A stretch of DNA of 47,229 nt from assembly GCA_944386905.1 (NCBI GenBank), contig CALXCW010000004.1, positions 1 to 47,229 on the forward strand, in the 5' to 3' direction. Source of the DNA: an uncultured Oscillospiraceae bacterium. GTDB lineage: Bacteria; Bacillota; Clostridia; Oscillospirales; Oscillospiraceae. Made by a program: the position numbers and the translations under genes. This document shows positions 2,248 to 47,229 of this stretch, piece by piece. The notes under the pieces are model-generated. The model worked only from the letters and a program-made list of their open reading frames with translations, made no database searches and had not been told where the DNA came from. The stretch's first letter is position 1. Every line of letters begins with the position of its first letter.

Positions 2248-3273
2248 CTAACGACAGGCCGCAGCCGTGAGGGCCCGGGCAAACGCATCCAGACGGGTCT
2301 GCACCTGGGGGGCGCGCAGGGCGTCGCCGGGGTCGTGGGCCGTCTCCAAAAGCAGGGCGCGGGGCGGCGTGATGGCGCCGCGGTTGAGACACATGGCCCC
2401 CAGCAGCTGCCGCGCCACCACGTCGCCGCCGCTGTAGCCCGAAGCCACCACGCCCATCACATACTTCTCCCCCAGGGATTCCCGCACCACCAGCCCGGTC
2501 AGTCGGTTGATGAGCGCCATGAGATTGGCCCCCAGGGCGTCGTTGTAGTTGGGGCAGAGAAAGAGCAGCACGTCGCTCTCCCGAATGGCGGGAAACACCG
2601 TCTCGGACAGGGCGCCGCCGTAAAAGCAGGTGGCGTTCTGGGCAAAGTGGAGGCACTGGCGATAGCCGCAGCCGCGGCAGTCGTGGACGGTGCCGTTTAA
2701 GAGCGCCAGCTCGGCCACATCGCAGCGGTCTTGAATCCGTGCCGCCACGGCCCGGCCCAGTGCCAGGGTATTGGAGCGGCCGGGGTTGGAGGCATGGAGC
2801 AGCAGCACCTTGGGCCGCTGGAACTTGGGGGGTGTGAACGCGGAGAGGCGCTCTGCCAGGAGCTGCACCCGGCGAAAGTAGGTCTCCTCCCAGGTCATCC
2901 CCCAGTTGGCCGCCTGGATATGGTGATTATAGAGCGAACCCGTGGCCTCCACCAGCGGCATGCCGGGGAGCCACGCACCGGCCTGAGTGGCCGCCAGCGC
3001 CAGGGCCTGGGCGGCGGATTTGGTGTAGAGCTCTCCGTCGCCGTCCACCACCATGGCCACCGTAGCCCCCGCCAAGGCCGCCGGGTCGGTGCGCAGGCGG
3101 CGCAGCAGAGCAAAAAAGGCCGGATCGGCGCCGCCGCCGTCTACGGCCACGGCGAAGAGCACTCGCCGTCCCGCCAGGGGGGCGGCGGGATCCACGGCAT
3201 CCAGCTCCAGGGGCGCCAGCGCCCGCTCCAGCCGGGGCGAGGCCCCCAGGCGGCAGAGCAGCGGCTCCATCAC
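2248..3273 (-). CDS. Flavodoxin-fold NAD(P)H-FMN reductase-like protein with Cys cluster
   Basis: This is probably a flavoprotein oxidoreductase. The C-terminal half (about residues 153-341 of 341) has the NADPH-dependent FMN reductase fold: a KVLLLHASNPGRSNT phosphate-binding loop near residues 155-169 and a PNYNDALGANLMALINR segment near 241-257. Four cysteines (C199, C202, C207, C216) form a cluster where iron-sulfur flavoproteins carry Cys ligands, although the spacing differs from the classic pattern. The first ~150 residues are not recognised. The start is GTG at 3273 or ATG at 3270; either overlaps the stop of the dehydrogenase-like gene upstream, so translation is probably coupled. 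The substrate is unknown. Confidence 0.75.
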   Translation of the reverse strand: MMEPLLCRLGASPRLERALAPLELDAVDPAAPLAGRRVLFAVAVDGGGADPAFFALLRRLRTDPAALAGATVAMVVDGDGELYTKSAAQALALAATQAGAWLPGMPLVEATGSLYNHHIQAANWGMTWEETYFRRVQLLAERLSAFTPPKFQRPKVLLLHASNPGRSNTLALGRAVAARIQDRCDVAELALLNGTVHDCRGCGYRQCLHFAQNATCFYGGALSETVFPAIRESDVLLFLCPNYNDALGANLMALINRLTGLVVRESLGEKYVMGVVASGYSGGDVVARQLLGAMCLNRGAITPPRALLLETAHDPGDALRAPQVQTRLDAFARALTAAACR

Positions 3274-4496: not shown

Positions 4497-4539
4497 GGGG
4501 TTCTCCTTTCTCGCAGGGAAATGATGCACCGGGCGCTGC

Positions 4540-4612
4540 GAAGGCGGCATGCAGGCGGACATACCGCCCGCCCCTATGCGGCCGTCCGTTGGATCCGCCC
4601 CCAATGCGGCGG
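4540..4612. repeat. Degenerate GC-rich hairpin repeat
   Basis: The spacer between the giant gene and the dehydrogenase-like gene contains GGCGG-ACATA-CCGCC followed by CGCCCCTATGCGG. This resembles the stronger hairpin repeat at 34114-34142 (GGGCGGCC-ATACA-GGCCGCCC then CTACGC). Two related copies in one window suggest a REP-like dispersed family. Confidence 0.4.
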
Positions 4613-9196: not shown

Positions 9197-9257
9197 AATA
9201 GACCCTCCTTGGTTAAGTTTGTCCCCAAACCGGGGAGTCGGGGAGGAGTTTGTACTT

Positions 9258-9286
9258 ATTATACTGTTTTTTCCCCTCGTTGACAA
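9258..9286 (-). promoter_or_regulatory. Sigma-A promoter for the giant fusion gene
   Basis: On the minus strand TTGTCA (9281-9286), a 17-bp spacer and a perfect TATAAT (9258-9263) lie about 60 bp upstream of the ATG. The -35 abuts the terminator of the upstream ATPase gene. Confidence 0.8.
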
Positions 9287-9287
9287 T

Positions 9288-9316
9288 AAAAAGTGGCCAG
9301 CCGAAGCTGGCCACTT
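9288..9316 (-). terminator. Rho-independent terminator of the ABC ATPase gene
   Basis: On the minus strand an 11-bp stem (9306-9316 with 9291-9301) is closed by a UUCG tetraloop and followed by a U-tract. It sits 16 bp after the ATPase stop codon. Confidence 0.88.
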
Positions 9317-9331
9317 GGCGTTTGTGTCCTC

Positions 9332-10534
9332 TTAGATGAGGTTCTTGTCGGTTGCCTTGCTGAACAGGTGCACCACGTTGCCGCCGAAGGTGATATCGAT
9401 TTTGTCGCCGTAGTTGAAGCCGTTCTTGTGCTCATTGGCGAGATCGATGGTGGGCAGGATCACGATGGCATCCTTGCCGCTGATGTTGACGTGCATGTGG
9501 ATGGTGCTGCCCATGAGCTCGGTGACGTCCACGCGGGCATCGATGGCATGGGGCGCGCTGGCGTCGCACAGGACAATGTGGTCGGGACGGATGCCCAGGG
9601 TGATATCCTGAGGCTGGACGGCGTTCTTCTTCAGAGCCGCCTGCTTGTCGGCGGGCAGGTCAATGCGCACACCGCAGGTGGTCACATAGTAAGTATCGCC
9701 GCTCTTCTCCAGCTTGGCATCGAAGAAGTTCATCTGCGGCGTGCCGATAAAGCCGGCCACGAAGAGGTTCGCGGGATGGTCGAACACTTCCTGGGGAGTG
9801 CCGATCTGCTGGATGAAGCCGTCGCGCATAATGACAATGCGATCGCCCAGGGTCATGGCTTCGGTCTGGTCGTGGGTGACGTAGATAAAGGTGGTGTTGA
9901 TCTTCTGCCGCAGCTTGATGATCTCAGCACGCATCTGGTTGCGGAGCTTGGCGTCCAGGTTGGACAGAGGCTCGTCCATCAGGAACACCTGAGGATCACG
10001 CACGATGGCGCGGCCGATGGCAACACGCTGGCGCTGACCGCCGGACAGGGCCTTGGGCTTACGGTTGAGGTACTGGGTGATATCCAGAATCTCGGCAGCC
10101 TCGCGCACCTTGCGGTCGATCTCATCCTTGGGCGTCTTTTTCAGCTTGAGCGAGAAGGCCATGTTGTCATACACGGTCATATGGGGATAGAGGGCGTAGT
10201 TCTGGAAAACCATGGCGATATCGCGATCCTTGGGGGCCACGTCGTTCATCAGCTTGTCGCCGATGTACAGCTCGCCCTCGCTGATCTCTTCCAGACCCGC
10301 GACCATGCGCAGCGTGGTGGACTTGCCGCAGCCGGAGGGGCCGACCAGAACGATAAATTCCTTGTCCGCGATTTCCAGGTTGAACTCCTGCACGGCCACA
10401 ACACCCTTATCGGTGATTTGCAGATTGGCCTTTTCCTTCTGGGGCTCGTCGTCCTTCTTCTTCTTTTTCTTCTTGCTCTCGCCGCTTACAAAGGGGTAGA
10501 TCTTCTTGACGTTCTTCAGGATAACTTTTGCCAT
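9332..10534 (-). CDS. MalK/UgpC/MsmK-type ABC transporter ATP-binding protein
   Basis: This 400-residue ATPase would energise binding-protein-dependent uptake of sugars or glycerol-3-phosphate. It has Walker A GPSGCGKST, signature LSGGQRQRVAIGRA, Walker B VFLMDEPLSNLDA and a C-terminal regulatory TOBE-type region, like MalK, UgpC and MsmK. No permease or binding-protein gene is nearby, so it may be a shared ATPase serving several importers. Between the first strand and Walker A it carries an unusual lysine-rich insert (residues ~18-40, with seven consecutive lysines) not typical of the family. The start is the ATG giving MAKVILKNVKKIYP; no good ribosome binding site precedes it, and a hairpin lies 14 nt upstream. 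Confidence 0.93.
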   Translation of the reverse strand: MAKVILKNVKKIYPFVSGESKKKKKKKDDEPQKEKANLQITDKGVVAVQEFNLEIADKEFIVLVGPSGCGKSTTLRMVAGLEEISEGELYIGDKLMNDVAPKDRDIAMVFQNYALYPHMTVYDNMAFSLKLKKTPKDEIDRKVREAAEILDITQYLNRKPKALSGGQRQRVAIGRAIVRDPQVFLMDEPLSNLDAKLRNQMRAEIIKLRQKINTTFIYVTHDQTEAMTLGDRIVIMRDGFIQQIGTPQEVFDHPANLFVAGFIGTPQMNFFDAKLEKSGDTYYVTTCGVRIDLPADKQAALKKNAVQPQDITLGIRPDHIVLCDASAPHAIDARVDVTELMGSTIHMHVNISGKDAIVILPTIDLANEHKNGFNYGDKIDITFGGNVVHLFSKATDKNLI

Positions 10535-10547
10535 GCGTACGACTATA

Positions 10548-10573
10548 ATCACAGTGCCTTCGCAAGCTGTGAT
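10548..10573 (-). promoter_or_regulatory. Hairpin just upstream of the ABC ATPase start
   Basis: ATCACAG (10548-10554) and CTGTGAT (10567-10573) form a 7-bp inverted repeat that can extend into the loop. It ends 14 nt ahead of the ATG, where a ribosome binding site would be expected but is not seen. It could be an operator or a translation-control hairpin. The 10535-10870 gap also holds the divergent promoters of this gene and the NUDIX gene; no gene is supported there. Confidence 0.45.
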
Positions 10574-10722
10574 CTCACGGCCCCGCGCTTGGCGAGCGCC
10601 GCATTGCGACAGGTCTCCACACTGCCGCACCGCTAGTCCGGCGGTTTGTTGCTGTTCCTCCTTTTTTGTTACCGTCCCAGGATATTCAGTGGAGTACCAC
10701 TGGGCGGCCATAGTACGATGAT

Positions 10723-10751
10723 ATTTTAGCACAGAACCCCCGCCGCCACAA
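10723..10751 (-). promoter_or_regulatory. Sigma-A promoter for the ABC ATPase gene
   Basis: On the minus strand TTGTGG (10746-10751), 17 bp, TAAAAT (10723-10728). It predicts a leader of about 180 nt before the ATG. Confidence 0.6.
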
Positions 10752-10812
10752 CGGACAGAACTTCCAATTTTATGGCGTGCCTTTTGGGGATTTTTACGAT
10801 TTTCCCCCGACG

Positions 10813-10841
10813 TTGCCATTCCCTTCGGGCCGTGGTATAAT
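10813..10841 (+). promoter_or_regulatory. Sigma-A promoter for the NUDIX-TRIC genes
   Basis: TTGCCA (10813-10818), a 17-bp spacer and TATAAT (10836-10841) with an extended TGG ahead of the -10. It lies 29 bp upstream of the NUDIX start. Confidence 0.82.
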
Positions 10842-10870
10842 GACGGAAACTATATTGGGGAGGCTTGACC

Positions 10871-11347
10871 ATGCGCAATACCACCCTCTGTTATCTGGAG
10901 CGTGACGGCGCTTATCTGATGCTCCACCGGGTAAAAAAGGCCCGGGACGTCAACCACGGCAAGTGGATCGGCGTGGGCGGAAAGTTTGAACGTCAGGAGA
11001 GTCCCGAGGAGTGCCTCATCCGGGAGGTATGCGAGGAGACCGGCCTCACCCTCACCCGCTGGCGCTGCCGCGGCATCGTCACCTTTTTATACAACGACGA
11101 TGACGCCGAATACATGCACCTCTACACCGCCGACCGCTGGGAGGGAACGCTCCGCGACTGCGACGAAGGCGACCTCCGGTGGGTGCCCATCGACCAGGTG
11201 CCCGCCCTCAATCTCTGGCGGGGCGACCGGATCTTCCTCGACCTGCTGGCCCGGGATGTCCCCTTCTTCTCCTTGAAGCTCACCTACCGCGGCGACGACC
11301 TGGTGGCCGCCGCCCTGGACGGCGCGCCTTTGGAGGTGACGCCATGA
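10871..11347 (+). CDS. NUDIX hydrolase, MutT/8-oxo-dGTP diphosphatase-like
   Basis: This 158-residue NUDIX protein probably hydrolyses an oxidised or surplus nucleoside diphosphate derivative. The Nudix box is complete: GGKFERQESPEECLIREVCE followed by ETGL, with the REVCEE metal-binding glutamates. The opening (MRNTTLCYLERDGAYLMLHR) resembles 8-oxo-dGTP diphosphatases. I chose the ATG at 10871, 7 nt after GGGGAGG (10857-10863), over a TTG two codons upstream. Its stop overlaps the start of the TRIC-type gene (ATGA), so the two are cotranscribed. The exact substrate is not determined. Confidence 0.9.
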   Translation: MRNTTLCYLERDGAYLMLHRVKKARDVNHGKWIGVGGKFERQESPEECLIREVCEETGLTLTRWRCRGIVTFLYNDDDAEYMHLYTADRWEGTLRDCDEGDLRWVPIDQVPALNLWRGDRIFLDLLARDVPFFSLKLTYRGDDLVAAALDGAPLEVTP

Positions 11348-11982
11348 ACAACCTGCTCTTCACCGCCGTGGAGATGATCGGCATGGTGGCCTTCGCCCTG
11401 TACGGAGCCCTGGTGGGCCTCAAATACCGGCTGGATCTGTTCGGTATTCTCCTCATGGGCGTCACCGCCTCCCTGGGCGGCGGCGTGATCCGGGATCTGC
11501 TCATCGGCTGCATCCCCCCGGCCATGTTCCGCGACTACCGCTATCTCCTGGTGGCGGTGGTCACGTCGCTGGTGGTGTTTTTCGCCGCCTATCTCTCCCG
11601 GGGCCGCTACCACCGCTACGAAGCCCGGGTGGAGGCCCTGGCCAATATCTTCGACGCGCTGGGTCTGGGCGCCTTCAACGTGGTGGGCGTCCAGGCGGGC
11701 ATCAACGCGGGCTTTGCCGACAACGGTTTTTTGCTGGTCTTTCTCGGCCTGCTCACCGGCATCGGCGGCGGCATTTTGCGCGATCTCTTTGTGCTGCGCA
11801 TGCCGGTGGTGCTCCACAAGCACGTCTACGCTCTGCCCGCCATCGCAGGTTCCCTGCTCTATGTGCTGCTCTACCGTCTGGGCGTCCAGGAGCTGGCGGC
11901 ATCCATGGCCGTGATCGCGGCGGTGTTCGCCCTGCGGATGCTGGCCACCCATTTTCGCTGGAACCTGCCCCACGCGTCGTAA
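11344..11982 (+). CDS. TRIC / UPF0126 family membrane protein (YicG-like)
   Basis: This 212-residue integral membrane protein has two homologous halves of glycine-rich helices. The paired motifs TASLGGGVIRDLL and TGIGGGILRDLF mark bacterial homologues of trimeric intracellular cation channels. About seven hydrophobic segments are visible. It is probably a monovalent cation channel, though some relatives have been proposed as glycine transporters. The ATG overlaps the NUDIX stop by 4 bp, giving translational coupling. A 60-bp gap separates it from the ABC exporter genes. Confidence 0.88.
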   Translation: MNNLLFTAVEMIGMVAFALYGALVGLKYRLDLFGILLMGVTASLGGGVIRDLLIGCIPPAMFRDYRYLLVAVVTSLVVFFAAYLSRGRYHRYEARVEALANIFDALGLGAFNVVGVQAGINAGFADNGFLLVFLGLLTGIGGGILRDLFVLRMPVVLHKHVYALPAIAGSLLYVLLYRLGVQELAASMAVIAAVFALRMLATHFRWNLPHAS

Positions 11983-12042
11983 CGGGCCGCGGTTTTTCCC
12001 CCGCCCATTTCCCCCCTTCCTTCCCCGTCTGGAGGTGATATC

Positions 12043-13782
12043 TTGACTCTGTTGGCCGCCTATGTCCGGCCCTACCGCAGCCGCGTCGCCCGCTCCATGG
12101 TCATCAAGCTGCTGGGAGCCGTGACGGAGCTGCTCATTCCCTACATCCTTGAGCACCTCATCGACGAGGTGGTGCCCCTGGGCCGGCTGGAGCTGGTGCT
12201 CTTGTGGAGCGCGCTGATGATCGCCACGGCCCTCCTCACCCGCCAGCTCAATGTCTGGGCCAACCGCATCGCCGTGGACAACGCCCACCACGTCTCCTAC
12301 GATCTGCGCCAGGCCCTCTTCACCAAGACGCTCTCCCTCTCCGGCGCCCAGTTCGACGCCTTCGGCCTGCCCAGCCTCACCAGCCGCCTCACCTCCGACA
12401 GCTACAACATCCAGACTGCCGTCCAGGCGCTCCAGACCATGTGCGTCCGCATGCCCATGATGCTGCTGGGGGGCCTGGCCGTGTCTCTCCTCATGGATCC
12501 GCCCCTGGCCGCCATCTTGGTGGTGATCGTGCCGGTGCTGGTGGCGGTGATTCTTCTGGTGTCCCGCTATGGCATCCCGCTGTACCGTCTGGTGCAGGAC
12601 AAGCTCGACCAGGTGGTGCGGATCATGCGGGAGAACATCACCGGCATCCGGGTGGTCAAGGCGCTGTCCAAGACCGGCTACGAGGCGGGCCGCTTCGCCG
12701 CCGCCAGCCGGGAGATGGCGCGCGCCGATATCCGCGCCAGCACCATCATGGCCATTCCCGCCCCCCTGATGCAGATGTGCCTGAATCTGGGCCTGACGCT
12801 GGTGGTGTGGGTGGGAGCCCGGCGGGTCTACACCGGCGAAATCAAGCCCGGCGTGATTCTGGCTTTTCTCACCTACTTCAACATGGTGATCCAGGGGGTC
12901 ATGGGCGTCAACCGCATCTTCATCATGCTCAGCAAGGCCACCGCCTCGGCCAACCGCATCGCCCAGGTCTTGGCCGCGCCGGAGGATCTGCCGGTCTGCC
13001 CCGCCTCTGAGGCAGCCCCCGCCGACGAGGCCCTGATCCGCTTCGACCATGTCTCTTTCCGCTACGATTCCGCCGCCGCCTCCCACGCGCGCCGGGAGGA
13101 CTGCCTCAGCGACGTCTCCTTTTCCCTGCGTCCCGGCGAAAGTCTGGGAATCATCGGCCCCACCGGCTGCGGCAAGACCACCATCGTCAATCTGCTCTTG
13201 CGGTTTTACGACGTCGATTCCGGCGTGGTGTCTGTGGGCGGGCGGGATGTGCGCACCTATCCCCTGGACGAGCTGCGCAAGAAATTCGGCGTGGTGTTTC
13301 AAAACGACATGGTGTTCTTCGACACCCTGCGGGAAAATATCCGCTTTGGCCGCGATCTCTCCGACGAGGCCCTCTGGGCCGCCGCCGACGATGCCGCCGC
13401 GTCGGAATTTCTCCATGCCCTGCCCGACGGCCTCTCCCACCGCGCCGACATCCAGGGCGCCAACCTCTCCGGCGGCCAGAAGCAGCGGCTGCTCATCGCC
13501 CGGGCTCTGGCGGCCAACCCGGAAATCCTGGTGCTGGACGACGCCTCCTCGGCCCTGGACTACAAGACCGACGCGGCGCTGCGCCGGGCCATCCAGGCCC
13601 GCCACAGCCAGTCCACCATCGTGATGATCGCCCAGCGGGTCAGCTCCATCCAGGCCATGACCCACATCCTGGTGCTGGACAACGGCCGCATCATCGGCGC
13701 CGGCGACCACGCCACGCTGCTCAAGACCTGCCCGGCCTACCAGGCCATCTATCACGCCCAGATGGGCGAACTCCCCGGCTGA
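12043..13782 (+). CDS. ABC exporter half-transporter with degenerate Walker B
   Basis: This 579-residue permease-ATPase fusion has about six N-terminal transmembrane helices and a C-terminal nucleotide-binding domain. Walker A is GPTGCGKTT (~373), the signature is canonical LSGGQ (~475), but Walker B reads LVLDDASSALD, with Asp in place of the catalytic Glu. This marks the degenerate half of a heterodimeric exporter. The start is TTG at 12043, set by GGAGGTGAT at 12031-12039. The partner gene begins 14 bp downstream. The substrate (drug, lipid or peptide) cannot be assigned. Confidence 0.92.
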   Translation: MTLLAAYVRPYRSRVARSMVIKLLGAVTELLIPYILEHLIDEVVPLGRLELVLLWSALMIATALLTRQLNVWANRIAVDNAHHVSYDLRQALFTKTLSLSGAQFDAFGLPSLTSRLTSDSYNIQTAVQALQTMCVRMPMMLLGGLAVSLLMDPPLAAILVVIVPVLVAVILLVSRYGIPLYRLVQDKLDQVVRIMRENITGIRVVKALSKTGYEAGRFAAASREMARADIRASTIMAIPAPLMQMCLNLGLTLVVWVGARRVYTGEIKPGVILAFLTYFNMVIQGVMGVNRIFIMLSKATASANRIAQVLAAPEDLPVCPASEAAPADEALIRFDHVSFRYDSAAASHARREDCLSDVSFSLRPGESLGIIGPTGCGKTTIVNLLLRFYDVDSGVVSVGGRDVRTYPLDELRKKFGVVFQNDMVFFDTLRENIRFGRDLSDEALWAAADDAAASEFLHALPDGLSHRADIQGANLSGGQKQRLLIARALAANPEILVLDDASSALDYKTDAALRRAIQARHSQSTIVMIAQRVSSIQAMTHILVLDNGRIIGAGDHATLLKTCPAYQAIYHAQMGELPG

Positions 13783-13796
13783 AAGGAGGCGCCGCC

Positions 13797-15566
13797 ATGG
13801 CTCAGCGAACCGCCGGAAAAAAGGAAAAGCCCCGGGATGCCCGGGGCACCACGTTGCGGATTGCCCGCTATCTCGGCACCTACCGGCTGTGGGTGGCGCT
13901 GCTGCTCCTGGGCACCCTCCTCAGCAACCTGGGCAACCTCCTGGGCCCCACCTTCGCCGGCAAGGCCATCGGCGCGGCGGTGGACAAGGGGCAGGTGGAC
14001 TTCGCCGTGGTGGCCTATTACGCCAAGTGGATGCTGGCATCCTACCTCCTGAGCAATCTTCTCTCCTTCGCCGTCAACCTGGGGATGATGCGCCTGGGAC
14101 GGCAGGTGGCCCACCGGATGCGCCGGGACGTGTTTGAAAAGCTGATGAAGCTGCCCGTGCGGTACTTCGACCGCAACCAGGCCGGCGACATTCTCTCCCG
14201 CGTCTCCTACGACGTGGACGTGGTCACCACCTGCCTCTCGGCGGATTTGGTGCAGATTCTCACCAGCGTGGTCACGGTGGTGGGCTCCTTTGCGATGATG
14301 TGCTGGATCTGCACGCCCATGGTGGCGGGGCTGCTCATCACCGTGCCCATGGCCATCGCCTTCACCCGGCTGATGGGCCGCCGCACCCGGCCCCTCTACG
14401 CCAAGCGCTCGGCATCCTACGGCCGGATGAACGGCTACGTGGAGGAGATGTACTCCGGGCAAAAAACCATCCTGGCCTATGCCCACGAGGCCCAGGTCTG
14501 CCGCGACTTTTCCCAGATCAACCGCGACGCCGCCGAGAGCTACCGCGACGCCGACACCCTGGGCATGACCACCGGCCCCACCATCAATATGATCAACAAC
14601 CTGGGCCTCTCCCTGGTGGGCATGGCCGGGGCGGTGCTCTATCTCCTGGGCCGGGTGGGCATGGAGCAGATCTCCTCTTTCGTGCTCTACTCCAGGAAGT
14701 TCTGCGGGCCCATCAACGAGATCGCCAACATCATCAACGAGATCTATTCCGCTCTGGCAGCCGCCGAGCGGGTCTTTACCCTCCTCGACCAGCCGGAGGA
14801 GCCCCCTGACGTCCCCGACGCGGCGTCCTTGGAGGCGGTGGTGGGCGATGTGGCAGCCGAGCACGTGGTCTTTGGCTACCTCCCCGGCCAGGTGGTGCTC
14901 CACGACCTGTGCCTCCACGCCCACCCGGGCAAGACCATCGCCATCGTTGGCCACACCGGCGCCGGCAAGACCACCATCATCAATCTCCTGATGCGCTTTT
15001 ACGACGTGGATTCCGGCCGGATTCTGGTGGACGGCCACCCCATCTGTGCGGTGACCCGGGATTCCCTGCGCCGTTCCTACGCCATGGTGCTCCAGGACAC
15101 CTGGGTTTTTCACGGCACCATCTTTGAAAACATCGCCTACGGCAAGGAGGGCGCCACCCGCGCCGAGGTGGAGGCCGCCGCCAAGGCCGCCCAGATCCAC
15201 GGCTACATCATGCGTCTGCCCCAGGGCTACGACACCGTCATCCGCGAGGACGGCGGCAACATCTCCAAGGGGCAGAAGCAGCTCATCACCATTGCCCGGG
15301 CCATGCTCTATGACACCCACATGCTCATCCTCGACGAGGCCACCAGCAACGTGGACACCACCACCGAGCAGCAGGTGCAGCTGGCCATGCGCACGCTCAT
15401 GGCCGGCAAGACCTGCTTCGTCATCGCCCACCGCCTCTCCACCATCCAAAATGCCGACCACATCCTGGTCATGGAGCACGGCGACGTGGTGGAGCAGGGC
15501 ACCCACGAGACGCTGCTGGCCGCGCGCGGGGTCTATTACCGGCTCTACGCCGCTCAATTTTCCTAA
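13797..15566 (+). CDS. ABC exporter half-transporter, catalytic partner
   Basis: This 589-residue transmembrane-plus-ATPase half-transporter pairs with the preceding gene. It has Walker A GHTGAGKTT and Walker B LILDEATSNVD with the catalytic Glu, but an altered signature ISKGQ instead of LSGGQ. In a heterodimer its Walker motifs combine with the partner's LSGGQ to form the active ATP site, while its ISKGQ faces the partner's Asp Walker B to form the inactive one. The ATG at 13797 follows AAAGGAGG. The product is expected to be an inner-membrane exporter. Confidence 0.93.
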   Translation: MAQRTAGKKEKPRDARGTTLRIARYLGTYRLWVALLLLGTLLSNLGNLLGPTFAGKAIGAAVDKGQVDFAVVAYYAKWMLASYLLSNLLSFAVNLGMMRLGRQVAHRMRRDVFEKLMKLPVRYFDRNQAGDILSRVSYDVDVVTTCLSADLVQILTSVVTVVGSFAMMCWICTPMVAGLLITVPMAIAFTRLMGRRTRPLYAKRSASYGRMNGYVEEMYSGQKTILAYAHEAQVCRDFSQINRDAAESYRDADTLGMTTGPTINMINNLGLSLVGMAGAVLYLLGRVGMEQISSFVLYSRKFCGPINEIANIINEIYSALAAAERVFTLLDQPEEPPDVPDAASLEAVVGDVAAEHVVFGYLPGQVVLHDLCLHAHPGKTIAIVGHTGAGKTTIINLLMRFYDVDSGRILVDGHPICAVTRDSLRRSYAMVLQDTWVFHGTIFENIAYGKEGATRAEVEAAAKAAQIHGYIMRLPQGYDTVIREDGGNISKGQKQLITIARAMLYDTHMLILDEATSNVDTTTEQQVQLAMRTLMAGKTCFVIAHRLSTIQNADHILVMEHGDVVEQGTHETLLAARGVYYRLYAAQFS

Positions 15567-15602
15567 AACGGCTCTTTTTCTGTGGAAATCTCCGCCGCGC
15601 CG

Positions 15603-15611
15603 TGGTATACT
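15603..15611 (+). promoter_or_regulatory. Extended -10 promoter for prfC
   Basis: TGG immediately followed by TATACT (15606-15611) forms an extended -10. No good -35 is seen at 17 bp. Transcription would begin near 15618 and give a leader of about 90 nt. Confidence 0.5.
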
Positions 15612-15635
15612 AAATCAGTTGTGAAATTTTACCTT

Positions 15636-15690
15636 GGAGGGAGCCGCCCATGTGATGCCGCGATGCCCGTCCCACCCAATTTCAATATGA
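15636..15690 (+). promoter_or_regulatory. prfC leader with start-stop mini-ORF
   Basis: A strong Shine-Dalgarno (GGAGGGA, 15636-15642) is placed 8 nt before an ATG directly followed by TGA (15650-15655). The TGA overlaps a second ATG opening an 11-codon ORF (15655-15690, MPRCPSHPISI). The prfC ribosome binding site (15693-15697) comes straight after. A ribosome initiating at the first ATG would have to terminate at once, just upstream of the gene for a termination factor. Confidence 0.5.
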
Positions 15691-15705
15691 CTGGAGGAAC
15701 CCATC

Positions 15706-17292
15706 TTGCCCACTCTGCAAGAAGAAATCCGGCGGCGGCGCACCTTCGCCATCATCTCCCACCCCGACGCCGGCAAGACCACCCTCACCGAGAAATTCCT
15801 GCTCTACGGCGGGGCCATCGCCCAGGCCGGCGCCGTCAAGGGCAAAAAGAACCGCCGGGCCGCCGTGTCCGACTGGATGGAAATTGAAAAACAGCGCGGC
15901 ATTTCCGTCACCTCGTCGGTGATGCAGTTTCAGTATGAGGGCTGCTGCATCAACATCCTCGACACCCCCGGCCACCAGGACTTCTCCGAGGACACCTACC
16001 GCACGCTGATGGCCGCCGACTCCGCCGTCATGGTCATCGACGGCAGCAAGGGCGTGGAGGCCCAGACCCGGAAGCTCTTCAAGGTCTGCGCCATGCGCCA
16101 CATCCCCATCTTTACCTTTATCAACAAAATGGATCGCGAAGCCAAGGATCCCTTCGACCTTCTCGACGAGCTGGAGCGGGAGCTGGGCATCGAGACCTAC
16201 GCCTGCAACTGGCCCATCGGCTCGGGCAAGGAGTTTCAGGGCGTGTACGACCGGGCGCGCAGTCAGATTCTCTTTTTCTCCGGCATCTCCGGCAAAAACA
16301 AGGCCGAGACCCTGGAGGTGGAGCTCACCGACGAGGTCGTGGGCCAGCGCATCGGTGCGACGCGCCACCGCCAGCTCATGGACGACATAGAGCTCCTGGG
16401 CGCCGGGCGGGAGTTTAACCTGGAGGAAGTCCGGGCCGGACAGCTCTCGCCGGTGTTCTTCGGCTCCGCCCTCACCAACTTCGGCGTGGAGCCCTTCCTG
16501 GAGGCCTTTTTGCGCATGACGCCTCCGCCGCTCAACCGCGAGGCCGACTGCGGCGTCATCGACGCCTTTGACCCCGGCTTCTCGGCCTTCGTTTTCAAAA
16601 TCCAGGCCAATATGAACAAGGCCCACCGGGATCGGCTGGCCTTTCTGCGGATCTGCTCGGGCAAATTCGAGCGGGATCAGGAATATTTCCACGTCCAGGG
16701 CGGCAAGAAGATGCGCCTCTCCCAGCCCCAGCAGCTTATGGCCCAGGAGCGGGAGATCGTGGACGAGGCCTACGCCGGAGACATCATCGGCGTGTTCGAC
16801 CCGGGCCTTTTCTCCATCGGCGACACCGTGTGCATGCCGGGCAAAAAATTCCGCTTTGCCCCCATCCCCACCTTTGCCCCGGAGCACTTCTCCCGCGTCA
16901 GCCCCAAGGACACCATGAAGCGCAAGCAGTTTATCAAGGGCACCGAGCAAATCGCCCAGGAGGGCGCCATTCAGATTTTCAAGGTGCCCAATACCGGCAT
17001 GGAGGAAGTCATCGTGGGCGTGGTGGGCACGCTGCAATTCGACGTCTTTGCCTACCGCATGCGCAGCGAATACGGCGTGGAGCTTCGAATGGAGGGCCTC
17101 CCCTACGAGCACCTGCGGTTTATCACCAAGAGTCCCGTTTTAGACCTCAAGGATTTGAACCTCACCTCCGACGCCGAGCTCCTGGAGGACTACCGCGGCA
17201 ACAGCCTGCTGGTGTTCTCCAGCCTGTGGAGCATCGACTACAACCTCAAAAAGAACCCCGGCCTGGCGCTGAGCGAGACGCTCAGCCGCTGA
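15706..17292 (+). CDS. prfC: Peptide chain release factor 3
   Basis: This GTPase speeds removal of RF1/RF2 from ribosomes after termination. The 528-residue length is typical. The G1 motif SHPDAGKTTLTE is at the N-terminus, followed by the switch segment QRGISVTSSV, the DTPGHQDFSEDTYR motif and NKMDREA. The start is TTG at 15706, supported by CTGGAGGA 8 nt upstream. It stands alone after the ABC exporter, with its own extended -10 promoter, an unusual leader and a strong terminator downstream. A shadowing uORF leader makes autoregulation possible. Confidence 0.96.
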   Translation: MPTLQEEIRRRRTFAIISHPDAGKTTLTEKFLLYGGAIAQAGAVKGKKNRRAAVSDWMEIEKQRGISVTSSVMQFQYEGCCINILDTPGHQDFSEDTYRTLMAADSAVMVIDGSKGVEAQTRKLFKVCAMRHIPIFTFINKMDREAKDPFDLLDELERELGIETYACNWPIGSGKEFQGVYDRARSQILFFSGISGKNKAETLEVELTDEVVGQRIGATRHRQLMDDIELLGAGREFNLEEVRAGQLSPVFFGSALTNFGVEPFLEAFLRMTPPPLNREADCGVIDAFDPGFSAFVFKIQANMNKAHRDRLAFLRICSGKFERDQEYFHVQGGKKMRLSQPQQLMAQEREIVDEAYAGDIIGVFDPGLFSIGDTVCMPGKKFRFAPIPTFAPEHFSRVSPKDTMKRKQFIKGTEQIAQEGAIQIFKVPNTGMEEVIVGVVGTLQFDVFAYRMRSEYGVELRMEGLPYEHLRFITKSPVLDLKDLNLTSDAELLEDYRGNSLLVFSSLWSIDYNLKKNPGLALSETLSR

Positions 17293-17389
17293 CCGGGGGG
17301 TGGCCTGTGGAAAGATCCGTGGAAAAATTGTTGAAAATTTCCCCAGGGGACACGGTTCGACACACATCGTCACGTTCATATGCTATGAT

Positions 17390-17431
17390 ATCTCCAGCGG
17401 ATGGCTCTCCCACCTCCGCTGGAGATTTTTT
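17390..17431 (+). terminator. Rho-independent terminator of prfC
   Basis: A 12-bp perfect stem (17390-17401 with 17415-17426), a 13-nt loop and a run of six Ts lie about 100 bp after the prfC stop and just short of the convergent spoIIE end. Confidence 0.88.
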
Positions 17432-17435
17432 GCAG

Positions 17436-19382
17436 CTACAGCGTCAGACCCCGGCGCAGCGTCAGCACCGCTGCCGTCCGGTCGTCCTCTCCCGGCGCTT
17501 GGCTACAGCTGATGATCCCGGAGGCCAGCTCCTTCGGCGACAGTCCTCCATACTGCCGGATGAACCGCTCGGCCACCTCTCCGCCGGCGCCATCACTCAC
17601 CAGCACCAGCATTTCTCCTCTTGCCAAGGACAGCTTCGCTTCCTCCGGGCGGTGTTCCTCTCCCACACCCAGCCCCGGCGGCGGCGAAGCTGTCCCGATT
17701 TTTTCCATCTGGCCCTTGCGCTTGAGGTAGGACGGCGCCGCGCCCCATTTATAGAGCGTCGCCTCGCCGCTCACCAGGTCGGCCTCCACCAAATCCACCG
17801 TGGAAAAGGCGCCGTCGTCCCGGAGGAGATACAGGTCGTTGAGAAACTCCATGGCCTCGCCGGGCCGGGCGCCGGTCAGCAGCAGCTGGCGCAGAATCTC
17901 GATGGCGGCCCCGGCCTCGGCCCGGGCGGCCCGCCCCGCCCCCATGCCGTCGCACAGCAGGACATAGTAGTGCCGCCCCAGGCGAAAGCTCGCCGTCTCG
18001 TCGCCGGACAGAGGCGCGTCGCCCCGGCTTCTGCCCCGGCAGGCCAGCTCCGGCACAAAGCGTACCGGCTCGTGATCGTCCCGGCGGCGGCGGAGCGCCT
18101 GGGAGAGAAGGATGTACTGCCGTCCCAGCGCCAGACGGCTCTCCCGCAGGCGGCTTCTCGCCTGTCGGCGGAAGGCCAAGTCGTCCAGGCAGCGGTTGAT
18201 GGCCGTGAGGAAGCCTTCCAAGTGGCAGCAGCCCTCGGTGAAGGCTGCCGGCAGATCCGCGGGCAGCGCCTTGCCGCGGGCCATCATGGCCGGCGTGGCC
18301 CGGTCTAAGGCGGCGCAGGTCTCCCCCAGGTTCTTCTGCCAGCACAGATCAAAGCGGCTGCACAGCCGGCAGACCTGGTCGGCGGCCCGGTCAAAGACCG
18401 CAGCGGCCTCGGGATCGGATTGAGACGGGCGGCCCAGGGCCAGGCACTTTCCCAGCCCCTCCAGGAGCTGCGCCGCCGCGCTCTGGCTGTCCGGGCCGGC
18501 GGCGGCGTCGCCGAAGAGCCGCCGGGCCGGCAGCAGCCAAGCCGCCGCAAAGCCCACCAGCGCCGCCGTGAGTACCACCGGGCCCGCCCCGGTGAGAAGC
18601 ACCGCCGCCGTCACGCCGCCCAGCCACAGTCCCCGGCGGCCCAGCGGGCGGGAGGCCGCGGCGGCCAGCAGCGCCGCCAGGGGCAAAACCGCGCCGCACC
18701 CGGCATAGCCCCCCAGCTCCAGCGCCACGCCGCCGAGGGCGGACACCGTCAGACTCGAAGCGCCATCCAGCGCCGCCGCGCTCAACGCAAACCCCGCCGC
18801 CGCGCCCAGGGGAAGGCCCCAGGGCGCCACGGCGCTCAGGCCGTTCACCAGCGCCGCCATCAGCGCCAGCCGCGGAAGCCTCGCCCCCGCCAGGGCCTGG
18901 GTAAAGACGGCCGTGCCGCCTCCGGCGGACAGGGCCATCACCAGAAGGCTCCACACCGCCGCCGGGGCGAAGCGCCGCTCCAGCAGAAACAACAGGCCCA
19001 CCAGAACCGTAAAGAGGGCCGCCATGGCCGGGCCGAACCACCGGTTTTCCCCGGAGATCTCGCCGCCGAAGATGCACAGGCAGGCCTCCATCAAAAGCCC
19101 CGCCGCCATGGGGTGCAGCCCCGCGTCCATACCCCAGAACAGGGCATAGCCCAGGCAGCCCCCGGCGTAGGCCGCAAAGGAGTTGAGCCCCAGGCCCAGC
19201 GCCGCCGCCAGCGCCAGGGGCAACGGCAGGAGGATCTCTCCCGCCCGGCTCCCGGCCAGGGCCAATCCCGCTCCGGCGCACAGGGCCAGGCGCAAAGCCT
19301 GTCCCGCAGCCGGGTGGCTGCTCCACCGGTTCCATCGCTGCCGCACGGCCTCATAGACCGCCGGACGCGCCTTTACTGACAT
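17436..19382 (-). CDS. spoIIE: Stage II sporulation protein E, PP2C phosphatase
   Basis: SpoIIE is a membrane serine phosphatase that dephosphorylates SpoIIAA to activate sigma-F in the forespore and helps place the polar septum. The 648-residue product has an N-terminal block of hydrophobic helices (to about residue 300), a central regulatory region with the family's Cys-rich CRLCSRFDLCW segment, and a C-terminal PP2C domain with metal-site motifs LLCDGMGAG and LVSDGAGG. It is shorter than the ~830-residue Bacillus protein. The ATG at 19382 has AGAGGGAAG upstream; an in-frame GTG at 19409 is less likely. It stands alone on the minus strand between prfC and the CYTH gene. Confidence 0.93.
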   Translation of the reverse strand: MSVKARPAVYEAVRQRWNRWSSHPAAGQALRLALCAGAGLALAGSRAGEILLPLPLALAAALGLGLNSFAAYAGGCLGYALFWGMDAGLHPMAAGLLMEACLCIFGGEISGENRWFGPAMAALFTVLVGLLFLLERRFAPAAVWSLLVMALSAGGGTAVFTQALAGARLPRLALMAALVNGLSAVAPWGLPLGAAAGFALSAAALDGASSLTVSALGGVALELGGYAGCGAVLPLAALLAAAASRPLGRRGLWLGGVTAAVLLTGAGPVVLTAALVGFAAAWLLPARRLFGDAAAGPDSQSAAAQLLEGLGKCLALGRPSQSDPEAAAVFDRAADQVCRLCSRFDLCWQKNLGETCAALDRATPAMMARGKALPADLPAAFTEGCCHLEGFLTAINRCLDDLAFRRQARSRLRESRLALGRQYILLSQALRRRRDDHEPVRFVPELACRGRSRGDAPLSGDETASFRLGRHYYVLLCDGMGAGRAARAEAGAAIEILRQLLLTGARPGEAMEFLNDLYLLRDDGAFSTVDLVEADLVSGEATLYKWGAAPSYLKRKGQMEKIGTASPPPGLGVGEEHRPEEAKLSLARGEMLVLVSDGAGGEVAERFIRQYGGLSPKELASGIISCSQAPGEDDRTAAVLTLRRGLTL

Positions 19383-19472
19383 GTTCTTCCCTCTTTCCAA
19401 GCGTATCACTGCCAGAAGTCTACCACGGCGGCACGGCGGAACGTGTCGGGAAATGGGCCGGGAAATGGCCGC

Positions 19473-19501
19473 TTGTCAAAAGAGGCAAAACCGGGTACAA
19501 T
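19473..19501 (+). promoter_or_regulatory. Sigma-A promoter for the CYTH-queH genes
   Basis: TTGTCA (19473-19478), 17-bp spacer, TACAAT (19496-19501), 34 bp before the CYTH start. Confidence 0.8.
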
Positions 19502-19535
19502 AGGGGCAAAGATACCTCAAAACGGAGGAAAAACC

Positions 19536-20147
19536 ATGGGAATTGAATTGGAGTACAAGCTGGCCGCCCCCAGCCCGGCGGCCCTGGACGCCCTCTGGGC
19601 CGATCCGGCTGTGGAGGCGGCCCGGCTGGAGGAAGTGCGCAGGATTGAGATGGCCACCGTCTACTACGACACCGCCGACCGGCGGCTGGGGGCGCTTCGG
19701 TGGACGCTGCGGCTGCGGCGGGAAAACGGCGCGCTGGTGGCCACCCTCAAGACCCCCGGCCAGGGCCACCTGCGCGGCGAGTGGGAGTGCCCCGCCGCCA
19801 CCATCGCCGAGGCCATTCCCCGGCTGATGGAGGTGGGCGCACCGGAGGAGCTGCCGGAGCTGCTGGAAGAAGAGCCGCTGGAGGCGGTGTGCGCGGCGCA
19901 GTTTCTCCGCCGGGCAGCCCGGCTGAAGCTGGCCGCGGACACCGAGGCGGAGCTCTGCTGCGACGTGGGCACCCTGGCCGGCGGCGGCAGGGAGCTGGCC
20001 TTCCAGGAGGCCGAGGTGGAGCTCAAGACCGGCCGGGTGGCGGAGGCGGAGGCCTTTGCCGACGCCCTGGCGGCCCGCCACGGCCTGAAGCCGGAGCCCC
20101 TGAGCAAGTTCGCCCGGGCCATGGCGCTGGCGGAGGGACGGCTATGA
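19536..20147 (+). CDS. CYTH domain protein (triphosphate tunnel metalloenzyme)
   Basis: CYTH proteins hydrolyse inorganic triphosphate or thiamine triphosphate, or make cAMP, inside a charged beta-barrel tunnel. The 203-residue product opens with the diagnostic ELEYK (ExExK) motif at residues 4-8 and has alternating Arg/Glu strands such as RWTLRLRRENG. The ATG at 19536 follows ACGGAGGA. It overlaps queH by 4 bp (ATGA). Triphosphatase activity is the commonest bacterial role, but the substrate is not fixed by sequence. Confidence 0.85.
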   Translation: MGIELEYKLAAPSPAALDALWADPAVEAARLEEVRRIEMATVYYDTADRRLGALRWTLRLRRENGALVATLKTPGQGHLRGEWECPAATIAEAIPRLMEVGAPEELPELLEEEPLEAVCAAQFLRRAARLKLAADTEAELCCDVGTLAGGGRELAFQEAEVELKTGRVAEAEAFADALAARHGLKPEPLSKFARAMALAEGRL

Positions 20148-20778: not shown

Positions 20779-21024
20779 GATAGCGAAAAAATGCAATGAC
20801 GAGGACGCGTACCCGGGTTGGATGCCTTTAGAGAGCCTGCGGCTGGTGCAAGCAGGCGGCATGTCCCGGGGAGAGATCCCCTCCGAGCTTCCCGCCGAAC
20901 CCCTTGGGGCAGTAGACCGGGACGGTGCGCGGCCGTTATCCGCCTTCGAGTGGCCCTTTGGGCAATGAGAGTGGTACCGCAGAGGTGTGCGCCTTTGTCT
21001 CTTGAGAGACAAGGGCGCTTTTTT
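20779..21024 (+). ncRNA. T-box riboswitch, isoleucine type, with terminator
   Basis: A 5' leader of about 300 nt between promoter and ileS carries the conserved T-box sequence TGGTACCGC (20972-20980). A terminator follows: a 13-bp stem (20989-21001 with 21006-21018, one G-U pair), a 4-nt loop and six Ts. Uncharged tRNA-Ile should pair through its anticodon and CCA end and favour the antiterminator. A candidate isoleucine specifier ATC lies at 20876-20878, within GAGATCCC. The exact leader folding is not drawn here, so the specifier position is tentative. Confidence 0.92.
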
Positions 21025-44353: not shown

Positions 44354-45628
44354 ATGAGCGCCACGTACCAGACCCTGACCCCTGCCCAGCGCCAGGCCGC
44401 ATATCAGGAGGTCAAAGCCCACTTCGATTCCCTCAAAGAGCTGGGGCTCAAGCTGAATATGGCCCGGGGCAAGCCCGGCAAGGAACAGCTTGACCTGGTG
44501 AGCGATATTCTCACCGTGCTGGTCGATCCGGCGCAGTGCGTCTCGGACGGCGTCGATGTGCGCAATTACGGCGAGCTCACCGGCCTCTCCGCCGCCAAGC
44601 GCCTCTTCGCCGATATCCTGGGCTGCAAGCCGGAGGAGTGCATCATCGGCGGCAACGCCAGCCTCACCCTGATGTACGACACCATCGCCAAGGCCTACAC
44701 CCACGGCCTCACCCACAGCCCCGCCCCCTGGTGCAAGCTGGACAAGGTTAAGTTCCTCTGCCCCGCCCCGGGCTATGACCGCCACTTCAAGATCACCGAG
44801 TCCTTCGGCGCGGAGATGATCGTGGTGCCCATGACTCCCACCGGCCCGGACATGGATCTGGTGGAAGAGCTGGTCAAGGACGCGGCTGTCAAGGGCATGT
44901 GGTGCGTGCCCAAGTATTCCAACCCCGACGGCATCATCTACTCCGACGAGACGGTGCGGCGCATCGCCGCCCTCAAGCCCGCCGCGCCGGACTTCACCCT
45001 TATGTGGGACAACGCCTACTGCGTCCACGAGTTCGACGGCCCCTTCGTCCCCTTTGCCGACATCCTCACCCTCTGCCGTGAGGCCGGCAACCCCGACATG
45101 GTCTATGAGTTCGCCTCCACCTCCAAGATCACCTTCCCCGGCGCGGGCATCTCGGTGATGGCCACCAGCGAGGCCAACGTGGCCTATATGGAAAAGCTCC
45201 TCACCGTGCAGACCATCTCCTACGACAAGGTCAACCAGCTGCGCCACGTGCTCTACTTGAAGGACAAGGCCCACACCCTGGCCCTGATGGAGCGCCACGC
45301 CGAAATCCTCCGGCCCAAGTTCCAGTGCGTCCTCCAGTGGCTCGACCGGGAGATTGCGCCTCTGGGCATCGCCACGTGGCAGAAGCCCAAGGGCGGCTAC
45401 TTCGTCAGCGTCAACACCGCCCCCGGCCTTGCCAAGCGCACCCTGGCCCTTTGCAAAGAGGCGGGCGTGGTGATGACCGGCGCCGGCGCCACCTTCCCCT
45501 ACGGCAAGGATCCCCAGGACTCCAACATCCGCATCGCCCCCAGCCTGCCTCCGGTGGGAGAGCTCACCCAGGCCATGGACGTCTTTTGTACCTGCCTGAA
45601 GCTGGCCGCCCTGGAAAGCCTGGGCTGA
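44354..45628 (+). CDS. Aspartate aminotransferase, type Ic-like (PLP-dependent)
   Basis: This enzyme probably transfers the amino group between aspartate and 2-oxoglutarate. The 424-residue fold-type I protein fits the atypical aspartate aminotransferase subgroup of Corynebacterium AspT rather than classic AspC: LNMARGKPGKEQLDL near the N-terminus, RNYGELTG, CVPKYSNPDGIIY, WDNAYCVHEF and the PLP-lysine segment FASTSKITFPGAG. The ATG at 44354 is preferred because AAAGGA (44340-44345) overlaps an earlier ATG. It stands between the HPr-like gene (divergent) and the guanine riboswitch, with its own promoter. Confidence 0.9.
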   Translation: MSATYQTLTPAQRQAAYQEVKAHFDSLKELGLKLNMARGKPGKEQLDLVSDILTVLVDPAQCVSDGVDVRNYGELTGLSAAKRLFADILGCKPEECIIGGNASLTLMYDTIAKAYTHGLTHSPAPWCKLDKVKFLCPAPGYDRHFKITESFGAEMIVVPMTPTGPDMDLVEELVKDAAVKGMWCVPKYSNPDGIIYSDETVRRIAALKPAAPDFTLMWDNAYCVHEFDGPFVPFADILTLCREAGNPDMVYEFASTSKITFPGAGISVMATSEANVAYMEKLLTVQTISYDKVNQLRHVLYLKDKAHTLALMERHAEILRPKFQCVLQWLDREIAPLGIATWQKPKGGYFVSVNTAPGLAKRTLALCKEAGVVMTGAGATFPYGKDPQDSNIRIAPSLPPVGELTQAMDVFCTCLKLAALESLG

Positions 45629-45639
45629 ACAGGTTTTCA

Positions 45640-45668
45640 TTGCAAACCGAACTGCGCCATGCTATAAT
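45640..45668 (+). promoter_or_regulatory. Sigma-A promoter of the guanine deaminase leader
   Basis: TTGCAA (45640-45645), 17 bp, TGC-TATAAT (-10 at 45663-45668), immediately upstream of the riboswitch. Confidence 0.85.
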
Positions 45669-45682
45669 AAAAGTACCAAGAG

Positions 45683-45784
45683 CACTCATATAATTTCGCT
45701 GGACATGGCGCGAAAGTCTCTACGGAACCGCCGAAAGGTTCTGCTATGGGTGTCCGGGCATTCCATGCCCGGACGCCCATTTTG
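45683..45784 (+). ncRNA. Purine (guanine-type) riboswitch with overlapping terminator
   Basis: The aptamer spans 45683-45752. P1 is CACTCATA/TATGGGTG, J1/2 is TATAAT-like, and P2 is TTCGC/GCGAA with a GGACATGG loop. J2/3 is AAGTCTCTAC and P3 is CGGAACC/GGTTCTG with a GCCGAAA loop. The specificity base equivalent to C74 is C at 45744, which indicates guanine/hypoxanthine. A 15-bp terminator stem (45746-45760 with 45766-45780) is followed by four Ts. Its 5' strand re-uses the P1 3' strand (45746-45752), so ligand binding should block termination, giving an ON switch. Confidence 0.92.
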
Positions 45785-45816
45785 ATTCTCAAACCGTTTC
45801 TCAGGAGGTGTCGATC

Positions 45817-47079
45817 ATGGCTCTGACCATTCTCAAAGGCAACATCGTCTCCGCCCCCCGGCTGGGTCAGCTGGACGTGACCGAAGGGGGTTACCTGGTG
45901 GCCCGGGACGGCATGATTCTGGGTGTCTTTCCCCAGCTGCCCGCCGAGTTCCAAGGGGCCTTCGTGGAGGACTTCGGCGGCGACCTCATCGTGCAGGCCT
46001 TCTCCGACATGCATCTCCACGCCCCCCAGTACCCCATGCTGGCCACGGGCATGGATTTGCCCCTTCTCGACTGGCTCAACACCTACGCCTTCCCCACCGA
46101 GGCGCGCTTCGCCGACCGCGACTACGCCAGGGCCGTCTACCGCACCCTGGCCCGGGATCTCATCGCCGGCGGCACCACCCGGGTGTGCATGTTCTCCTCG
46201 CTTCACACCGACGCCACCCTCATCCTCATGGAGGAGCTGGAGCGGGCCGGGGTCACCGGCTTCGTGGGCAAGGTAAACATGGATCGCAACAGCGCCCCGG
46301 GACTTTTGGAGGAGACCACCGAAGAATCCAAACGGGAGACCCTGCGGTGGCTGGAGGCCTGCGCGGACTTCCGCGGCCTGCGGCCCATCCTCACCCCCCG
46401 CTTCACTCCCTCGTGCACCGACGCGCTGATGGCCTTCCTGGGAGAGCTCTCCCGGACGCGGGATCTGCCGGTGCAGTCCCACCTCTCGGAAAATCGCCAG
46501 GAGATCCAGTGGGTGCGTCAGCTCCACCCCGACTGCCGCCAATACTGGCAGACCTATCAGAAGTTCGGCCTGTGGCATGATAAGACCGTCATGGCCCACT
46601 GCGTCTGGTCGGACGAGGAGGAGCGCCGGGCCATGAAAGAGGCGGGGGTGACGGTGGTGCACTGCGCCGATTCCAACCAAAATCTCTGCTCCGGCGTGGC
46701 GCCGGTGCGCAAGATGCTCCGCGAGGGTCTCCAGGTGACCCTGGGCAGCGACGTGGCCGGCGGCGACAGCCTGAGCATGTTCCAGGTGGTGGCCTCGTCC
46801 ATCCGCGCCTCCAAGGCCCGGCGGATTCTCGACAATTGGGAGACGGACTTCCTCACCGTGGCCGAGGGCTGGTATCTGGGCACCTCCGCCGCCGCCCACT
46901 TCTTCGGCGAGAAGCCGGGCTTTGCCCCAGGCAACCGCCTCCACGCCATGGTGCTGCGAGACACGGATCTCCACACCCCCAGCCATCTCGACCCCAAGGC
47001 CCGGCTGGAGCGGGCGGTGTACCTGCGCCAGAAGGACTGCGTCCGCGCCGTCTGGAGCGACGGCCGCCGGGTGCTGTGA
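45817..47079 (+). CDS. guaD: Guanine deaminase
   Basis: This zinc amidohydrolase converts guanine to xanthine and ammonia. The 420-residue protein has the metal motif FSDMHLHAPQYP, the active-site segments LLDWLNTYAFPTEARF and GGTTRVCMFSS, then QSHLSENRQEI, MAHCVWSDEEE, HCADSNQNLCSG and GSDVAGG, matching the Atz/Trz-type guanine deaminases. The ATG at 45817 follows AGGAGGTG with 6-nt spacing; an in-frame GTG at 45808 overlaps that site. Control is by the riboswitch directly upstream. A bidirectional terminator separates it from gap. Confidence 0.94.
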   Translation: MALTILKGNIVSAPRLGQLDVTEGGYLVARDGMILGVFPQLPAEFQGAFVEDFGGDLIVQAFSDMHLHAPQYPMLATGMDLPLLDWLNTYAFPTEARFADRDYARAVYRTLARDLIAGGTTRVCMFSSLHTDATLILMEELERAGVTGFVGKVNMDRNSAPGLLEETTEESKRETLRWLEACADFRGLRPILTPRFTPSCTDALMAFLGELSRTRDLPVQSHLSENRQEIQWVRQLHPDCRQYWQTYQKFGLWHDKTVMAHCVWSDEEERRAMKEAGVTVVHCADSNQNLCSGVAPVRKMLREGLQVTLGSDVAGGDSLSMFQVVASSIRASKARRILDNWETDFLTVAEGWYLGTSAAAHFFGEKPGFAPGNRLHAMVLRDTDLHTPSHLDPKARLERAVYLRQKDCVRAVWSDGRRVL

Positions 47080-47096
47080 CCGGAAATGCCCCCGAA

Positions 47097-47138
47097 TGCA
47101 AAAAAAGAGCGCCGCAGCTGCGGCGCTCTTTTTTTGCA
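47097..47138. terminator. Bidirectional terminator, 42-bp perfect palindrome
   Basis: A stem of GAGCGCCGCAG/CTGCGGCGCTC with no formal loop is flanked by seven As and seven Ts. The palindrome is perfect from 47097 to 47138. It serves the convergent guanine deaminase and gap genes. Confidence 0.92.
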
Positions 47139-47152
47139 AATTGGGCGATCTC

Positions 47153-47229
47153 TTACTTGTGATCGACGGAGTACATGTGCTTGATGAGCTCCAGAACCTT
47201 GTTGGAGTAGCCGACCTCGTTGTCGTACC
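47153..47229 (-). CDS. gap: Glyceraldehyde-3-phosphate dehydrogenase (3' end only)
   Basis: The reverse strand encodes the last 24 complete residues of GAPDH, ending YDNEVGYSNKVLELIKHMYS and four more residues before TAA (47153-47155). The YDNE-GYS-V segment is diagnostic of the GAPDH C-terminus. The gene runs off the window. It is on the same strand as pgk but about 45 kb away. Confidence 0.9.
   Translation of the reverse strand, partial: YDNEVGYSNKVLELIKHMYSVDHK

Follow-up and report, generated by a model that had tools for sequence, protein, structure and literature searches.

Does guanine turn on or turn off a gene whose product would destroy it? The question is raised by a purine aptamer that lies directly ahead of a guanine deaminase gene in an uncultured Oscillospiraceae bacterium. 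We analyzed the whole stretch of DNA that carries this locus (47,229 nucleotides, hereafter the window), for which a first-pass annotation had proposed ON control. It is very likely, in our assessment, that the leader is a guanine-I riboswitch and switches transcription of the guanine deaminase gene ON.

A guanine-I aptamer precedes a guanine deaminase gene

A covariance-model scan of the window gave an RF00167 match at 45666-45766 on the forward strand, scoring 53.1 bits where the gathering score is 37. This is the sole Rfam purine aptamer of the window; the start codon of the deaminase gene is 51 bases downstream. The core of the aptamer, which is of the guanine-I type, spans 45682-45753. 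The features of the locus are as follows.

45640-45668, + strand: promoter, with -35 TTGCAA (45640-45645), a 17-nt spacer and extended -10 TGCTATAAT (consensus scan)
45682-45690, + strand: 5' strand of aptamer P1 (RF00167 alignment, pair list)
45691-45693, + strand: J1/2; 45691 is U22, a ligand contact
45694-45715, + strand: P2/L2 hairpin, stem 45694-45699 / 45710-45715 (RF00167 alignment, folding)
45716-45723, + strand: J2/3 GUCUCUAC; 45717 is U47 and 45721 is U51, both ligand contacts
45724-45742, + strand: P3/L3 hairpin, stem 45724-45729 / 45737-45742, L3 GCCGAAA (RF00167 alignment, folding)
45743-45744, + strand: J3/1; 45744 is C74, the guanine-specifying base, and position 73 is G
45745-45753, + strand: 3' strand of P1, of which 45746-45753, the switching strand, doubles as the lower part of the terminator's 5' arm
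45746-45780, + strand: intrinsic terminator hairpin, 15-16 bp, -30.8 kcal/mol (terminator scan, folding)
45754-45772, + strand: upper 8-bp hairpin that fits both states, likened to P4 of pbuE, where strand exchange starts (PMC7707468)
45780-45788, + strand: weak U-run UUUUGAUUC (sequence, terminator search)
45803-45809, + strand: Shine-Dalgarno AGGAGGU (sequence)
45817-47079, + strand: guanine-deaminase-family protein of 420 aa, with an alternative GTG start at 45808

P1 consists of nine pairs (45682-45690 / 45745-45753), two of them G-U, while P2 and P3 have six each and the junction lengths are those of guanine-I aptamers. The pocket corresponds to the consensus (U22, U47, U51 and C74, with U75 at 45745), and the alignment confirms the assignment of the specificity base C74 to 45744 made in the first-pass annotation. 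L2 has a GG and L3 a CC that may correspond to the kissing pairs (G37, G38 / C60, C61), L3 being shorter than in the Rfam consensus, from which the aptamer also departs at position 73 (G, not A) and in both loops. J2/3 has 8 nt and J3/1 has 2 nt, without the insertions of guanine-II and xanthine-II. Because the pocket is made of consensus guanine-I residues and the junctions lack insertions, guanine is the expected ligand. The guanine-II, xanthine-II and adenine classes, which fit neither the pocket nor the junction lengths, were rejected.

The promoter, directly upstream of the aptamer, has 10 of 12 consensus matches together with the TG (TTGCAA-17-TATAAT), and two promoter-like sites occur in the scanned region against 0.1 expected. 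With the extended -10 promoter ending at 45668, transcription probably begins at around 45675, shortly upstream of P1.

As for the gene, its earlier designation as a guanine deaminase agrees with the best family match of the protein, TIGR02967 (guanine deaminase), although the score of 308.6 bits is under the curated equivalog cut-off of 375.4. The protein also matches PDB 2i9u (E 2.4e-96) and human guanine deaminase 2uz9 (E 1e-70), whereas the 8-oxoguanine deaminase family gives 84 bits and the other listed amidohydrolases are likewise far below TIGR02967. Alignment with 2i9u reveals shared HxHxxQ, PRF, SHxSE, MAHC and GSD stretches, which we take to be the active-site motifs of guanine deaminase. 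Opposite the gene, there is an antisense open frame (45637-47229, - strand) of 530 codons, open at the window end, that is probably a by-product of high-GC coding sequence.

An ON layout might also answer to a natural ligand other than guanine. The 8-oxoguanine riboswitch, reportedly an ON switch for 8-oxoguanine deaminase, is one variant of the same scaffold. Variants for xanthine and 2'-deoxyguanosine are known as well, several of them predicted or reported to be ON (PMC9295807), and the window aptamer is off consensus at position 73 and in its loops, but hypoxanthine, xanthine, 8-oxoguanine or 2'-deoxyguanosine is an improbable ligand here, with every guanine contact consensus, no xanthine-II or guanine-II insertion in J2/3 or J3/1, and a gene of the guanine deaminase rather than the 8-oxoguanine deaminase family (309 versus 84 bits).

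The only terminator is built at the expense of P1

The arms of the terminator, 45746-45760 and 45766-45780, form 15 bp, or 16 when T45761-A45765 is counted. The hairpin takes eight of the nine P1 3'-strand nucleotides (45746-45753) and stops one pair short of the junction, exactly as read in the first-pass annotation, in which the 5' arm held the P1 3' strand minus its first base. It starts within P1, at 45746, and does not invade P3. When P1 is held, the leftover 8-bp hairpin (45754-45761 / 45765-45772) ends eight bases before T45781. The remaining hairpin had thus been correctly placed away from the T-run, but the lower pairs lost to the 9-bp P1 are eight, not seven. With the P1 3' strand masked over its first seven bases, the best U-run hairpin weakens from -30.8 to -8.8 kcal/mol, in keeping with the proposed competition between P1 and the terminator. 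The overlap exceeds chance: when the 27 nt separating P1 from the U-run were shuffled 2000 times, the overlapping hairpin had a mean best energy of -3.7 kcal/mol and never passed -20.5, against the observed -30.8. These results support mutually exclusive terminator and P1, an ON-switch layout with pbuE-like logic and P1-only invasion.

The opposite output, in which guanine-stabilized P1 blocks an antiterminator and thereby frees a terminator, is the rule among described guanine-I riboswitches, including xpt of Bacillus subtilis and all four guanine riboswitches of Clostridioides difficile (PMC9295807, PMC11477304), which act as OFF switches on synthesis, salvage and uptake genes (PMC9295807). 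The literature here agrees with the first-pass annotation, which had set these mostly OFF switches against the ON switch of pbuE (PMC7707468). OFF control nevertheless requires a terminator compatible with P1, such as the separate downstream terminator that salvage and uptake leaders of the same family do carry, whereas the window's only terminator consumes the P1 3' strand. We looked for a separate one and found no terminator-like site in 45300-47229 besides 45746-45780, in line with the single terminator noticed earlier; the next-best U-run hairpin before the start codon reaches just -8.8 kcal/mol. OFF control of the deaminase is therefore very unlikely. A version with a hidden antiterminator was rejected, there being no second strong U-run hairpin.

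It is also possible, if unlikely, that the aptamer is functional and the hairpin terminates poorly, leaving control that is weak, translational or exerted via RNA stability. The U-run is indeed poor (UUUGAUUC, with five U in eight following full pairing and a break after four), and the fold calculated without ligand pairs part of the Shine-Dalgarno stretch. However, in most orthologs a stronger U-run (6-7 of 8) occupies the same place, and the Shine-Dalgarno stretch is largely paired in the aptamer-bound fold too. We rejected translational control since no dedicated anti-Shine-Dalgarno strand was found. The transcriptional ON switch is the preferred reading.

Switching would be under kinetic control

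Calculated folding of the transcript length by length gives the aptamer a probability of 0.78 up to nucleotide 45772 and of about 0 by 45778, and the terminator state gains about 10 kcal/mol over the aptamer by 45780. Ligand factors of 200-20000, a range of our own choice, delay and never reverse the takeover by the terminator at equilibrium, in a model without loop-loop contact or pausing. Because the terminator wins at equilibrium whatever ligand factor is applied, switching in the window leader must, according to this model, be kinetic. The terminator of pbuE is likewise more stable at equilibrium, and its control is kinetic (PMC7707468).

The mechanism that we infer, involving guanine binding, kinetic control and guanine-dependent read-through, would proceed as follows. 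The aptamer (P1, P2, P3) would be transcribed and folded first. Upon emergence of 45773-45780, the 3' arm of the downstream hairpin would begin to displace P1 by capturing its 3' strand. If guanine is absent, strand exchange would run to the end and produce a 15-bp terminator beside the U-run, stopping transcription ahead of the gene. If guanine is bound, the junction would clamp P1, the terminator would be left with its upper 8 bp at a distance from the U-run, and the polymerase would read through into the deaminase gene. Guanine would thereby induce the enzyme that turns it into xanthine and ammonia.

Orthologous deaminase leaders keep the ON layout

A covariance search for purine aptamers upstream of other guanine deaminases, an idea of the first-pass annotation, identified one directly upstream of 41 of the 80 deaminase relatives found with the window protein, using a model built from 25 aptamers of the family and leaving out five matches more than 1.5 kb away. 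Rfam confirms 16/20 and 9/10 aptamers in two overlapping sets. Among the hosts are Oscillibacter, Agathobaculum, Blautia, Intestinibacter and Eubacterium barkeri, and a small number of loci are labelled Spirochaetales or Bacilli. The leaders that we read include those of the cultured relatives Oscillibacter valericigenes Sjm18-20 (L015), O. ruminantium GH1 (L014), Agathobaculum butyriciproducens (L031) and E. barkeri (L056). Separately, we retrieved the RF00167 loci of the window's family, present in 88 of 300 genomes.

The direction of control was called by script for 141 aptamers, by comparing the best U-run hairpin when the P1 3' strand was available with that when it was blocked; an ON call corresponds to a terminator starting at or before U75+5 and losing at least 5 kcal/mol. 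ON-type overlap is found in 67/75 guanine deaminase leaders (66/74 distinct) but only 4/46 leaders of BMP-type transporter (1/28), xpt (1/8) and NCS2 permease (2/10) genes, in counts that are not phylogenetically independent and are altered little by dropping identical leaders. These classes come from blastp clusters, helped by a small number of NCBIfam scans; BMP and NCS2 are names assigned by eye, with no NCBIfam match at 1e-20. The corresponding Fisher p of 8e-20, for leaders with a terminator and uncorrected for kinship, is descriptive, because the thresholds were set after the first results had been seen and the start-codon limit differed between deaminase and other leaders. The same script called ON all three U74 adenine deaminase leaders of the family, for which ON control is expected. 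Judged from their leaders, same-family uptake and salvage genes are without the ON wiring that orthologous deaminase genes keep, and the ON interpretation is well supported by this comparison.

U22, U47, U51 and C74 are found in all complete aptamers of the 71 distinct deaminase set, window included; one is 5'-clipped. Eight deaminase leaders are without the ON layout: five have another layout, and in three no terminator was called. Tandem copies and one truncated leader are among the eight.

Several side observations concern the same collection. Position 73 is A in 34/35 transporter/xpt aptamers, while the deaminase aptamers have G in 39/71, A in 18, U in 7 and C in 7. Tandem purine aptamers, about 90-165 bases apart, precede guanine deaminase (L114, L128, L144) or an NCS2-like permease (L118). 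Two C74 aptamers before adenine deaminase (L150:2211-2291 and L151:316-396) have no terminator-P1 overlap, opposite to the U74 ones.

The ON layout occurs in two forms and before other genes

Most Oscillospiraceae-like leaders have a terminator that begins at U75+1 to +4 and draws on P1 alone. The terminators of Blautia, Intestinibacter, E. barkeri and other leaders begin, for the most part, 13-23 nt ahead of U75 and include P3, as in pbuE. The shared strand is complementary to both of its partners throughout 38 distinct P1-only leaders, in which U75+4 is A (partners U, U), G (U; U or C) or U (A, A), the terminator partners being taken from fold prediction and only the P1 side forming an independent count. 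In some orthologs (e.g., L008 and L010), P1 overlaps the bottom 3-4 terminator pairs, the rest retaining about -22 kcal/mol near the U-run, and these leaders may be leaky.

The C74 ON layout is also found before a selenium-dependent xanthine dehydrogenase gene (L131, TIGR03311, 1109.7 bits), an 8-oxoguanine-deaminase-like gene (L056, 577 bits, with which L169 clusters), an FAD oxidoreductase gene at five loci (named by eye; one was scanned, with no family match) and a MATE-like transporter gene (L139, named by eye). We lean towards the view that, taken together, natural guanine-I ON riboswitches make up a purine-catabolic regulon, widespread in anaerobic gut Firmicutes and of two forms (P1-only and P3 invasion), comprising guanine deaminase, selenium-dependent xanthine dehydrogenase, 8-oxoguanine-deaminase-like amidohydrolase, FAD oxidoreductase and MATE-like transporter, and mirrored by same-family OFF switches on uptake and salvage genes.

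At the E. barkeri locus, two purine aptamers with C74 and the ON layout lie 1.5 kb from each other, the first (L056:782-853) before the 8-oxoguanine-deaminase-like gene, whose score is over the cut-off, and the second (L056:2318-2389) before guanine deaminase. The pocket of the first is unaltered, with guanine-I residues.

Relation to known riboswitches

Like the pbuE adenine riboswitch of B. subtilis, an ON switch, the window leader builds its terminator at the aptamer's cost and keeps the upper hairpin in both states (PMC7707468), but it has C74 instead of U74 and its terminator invades P1 only, whereas that of pbuE invades P1 and P3. An engineered chimera of the xpt aptamer and the pbuE platform gives about 14-fold induction (PMC7707468). 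With the OFF guanine-I riboswitch of xpt-pbuX, the window leader shares aptamer class and pocket, while its wiring is opposite and its target gene catabolic. Guanine-II of Paenibacillus, predicted ON in 2022, also has guanine as ligand, but has J2/3 and J3/1 insertions and acts mainly on phosphoribosyltransferase genes; xanthine-II is predicted ON on purine degradation genes (PMC9295807). Scaffold, ON logic and purine breakdown genes are common to the window leader and the xanthine-II and 8-oxoguanine riboswitches, whose pockets are, in contrast, altered and whose reports are mostly from Paenibacillus/Paenibacillaceae.

Among the full texts searched, mostly from journals without subscription, none was found to describe a guanine-I switch that turns guanine deaminase ON. 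The leader places a known class of aptamer, wired in reverse, ahead of a catabolic gene, an arrangement apparently common in Clostridia. If this conserved ON form is true, one aptamer class would have opposite outputs according to gene function, terminator overlap would predict the direction of control, and natural guanine-induced parts would be available; it would also suggest how purine breakdown is regulated in gut anaerobes.

Origin of the locus

The adjacent aspartate aminotransferase is 80-89% identical among species of the window's genus, whereas the congeners' deaminases are 42-47% identical to the window's and Oscillibacter-like deaminases up to 76%. No purine aptamer was found upstream of the congeners' own deaminases. 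The simplest reading of these sequences is that gene and riboswitch were gained horizontally. A misbinned contig was rejected as the source, since the contig, judged from the neighboring aminotransferase, belongs with the genus even if the deaminase does not. Insertion could not be traced through synteny, since genes beyond the aminotransferase vary among congeners and an empty site is not demonstrable, and a search for plasmid carriage gave no match. Elsewhere, the window contains a malK-I RNA motif (10529-10712, - strand, 131.1 bits) and a T-box leader (20787-21005, + strand, 100.9 bits).
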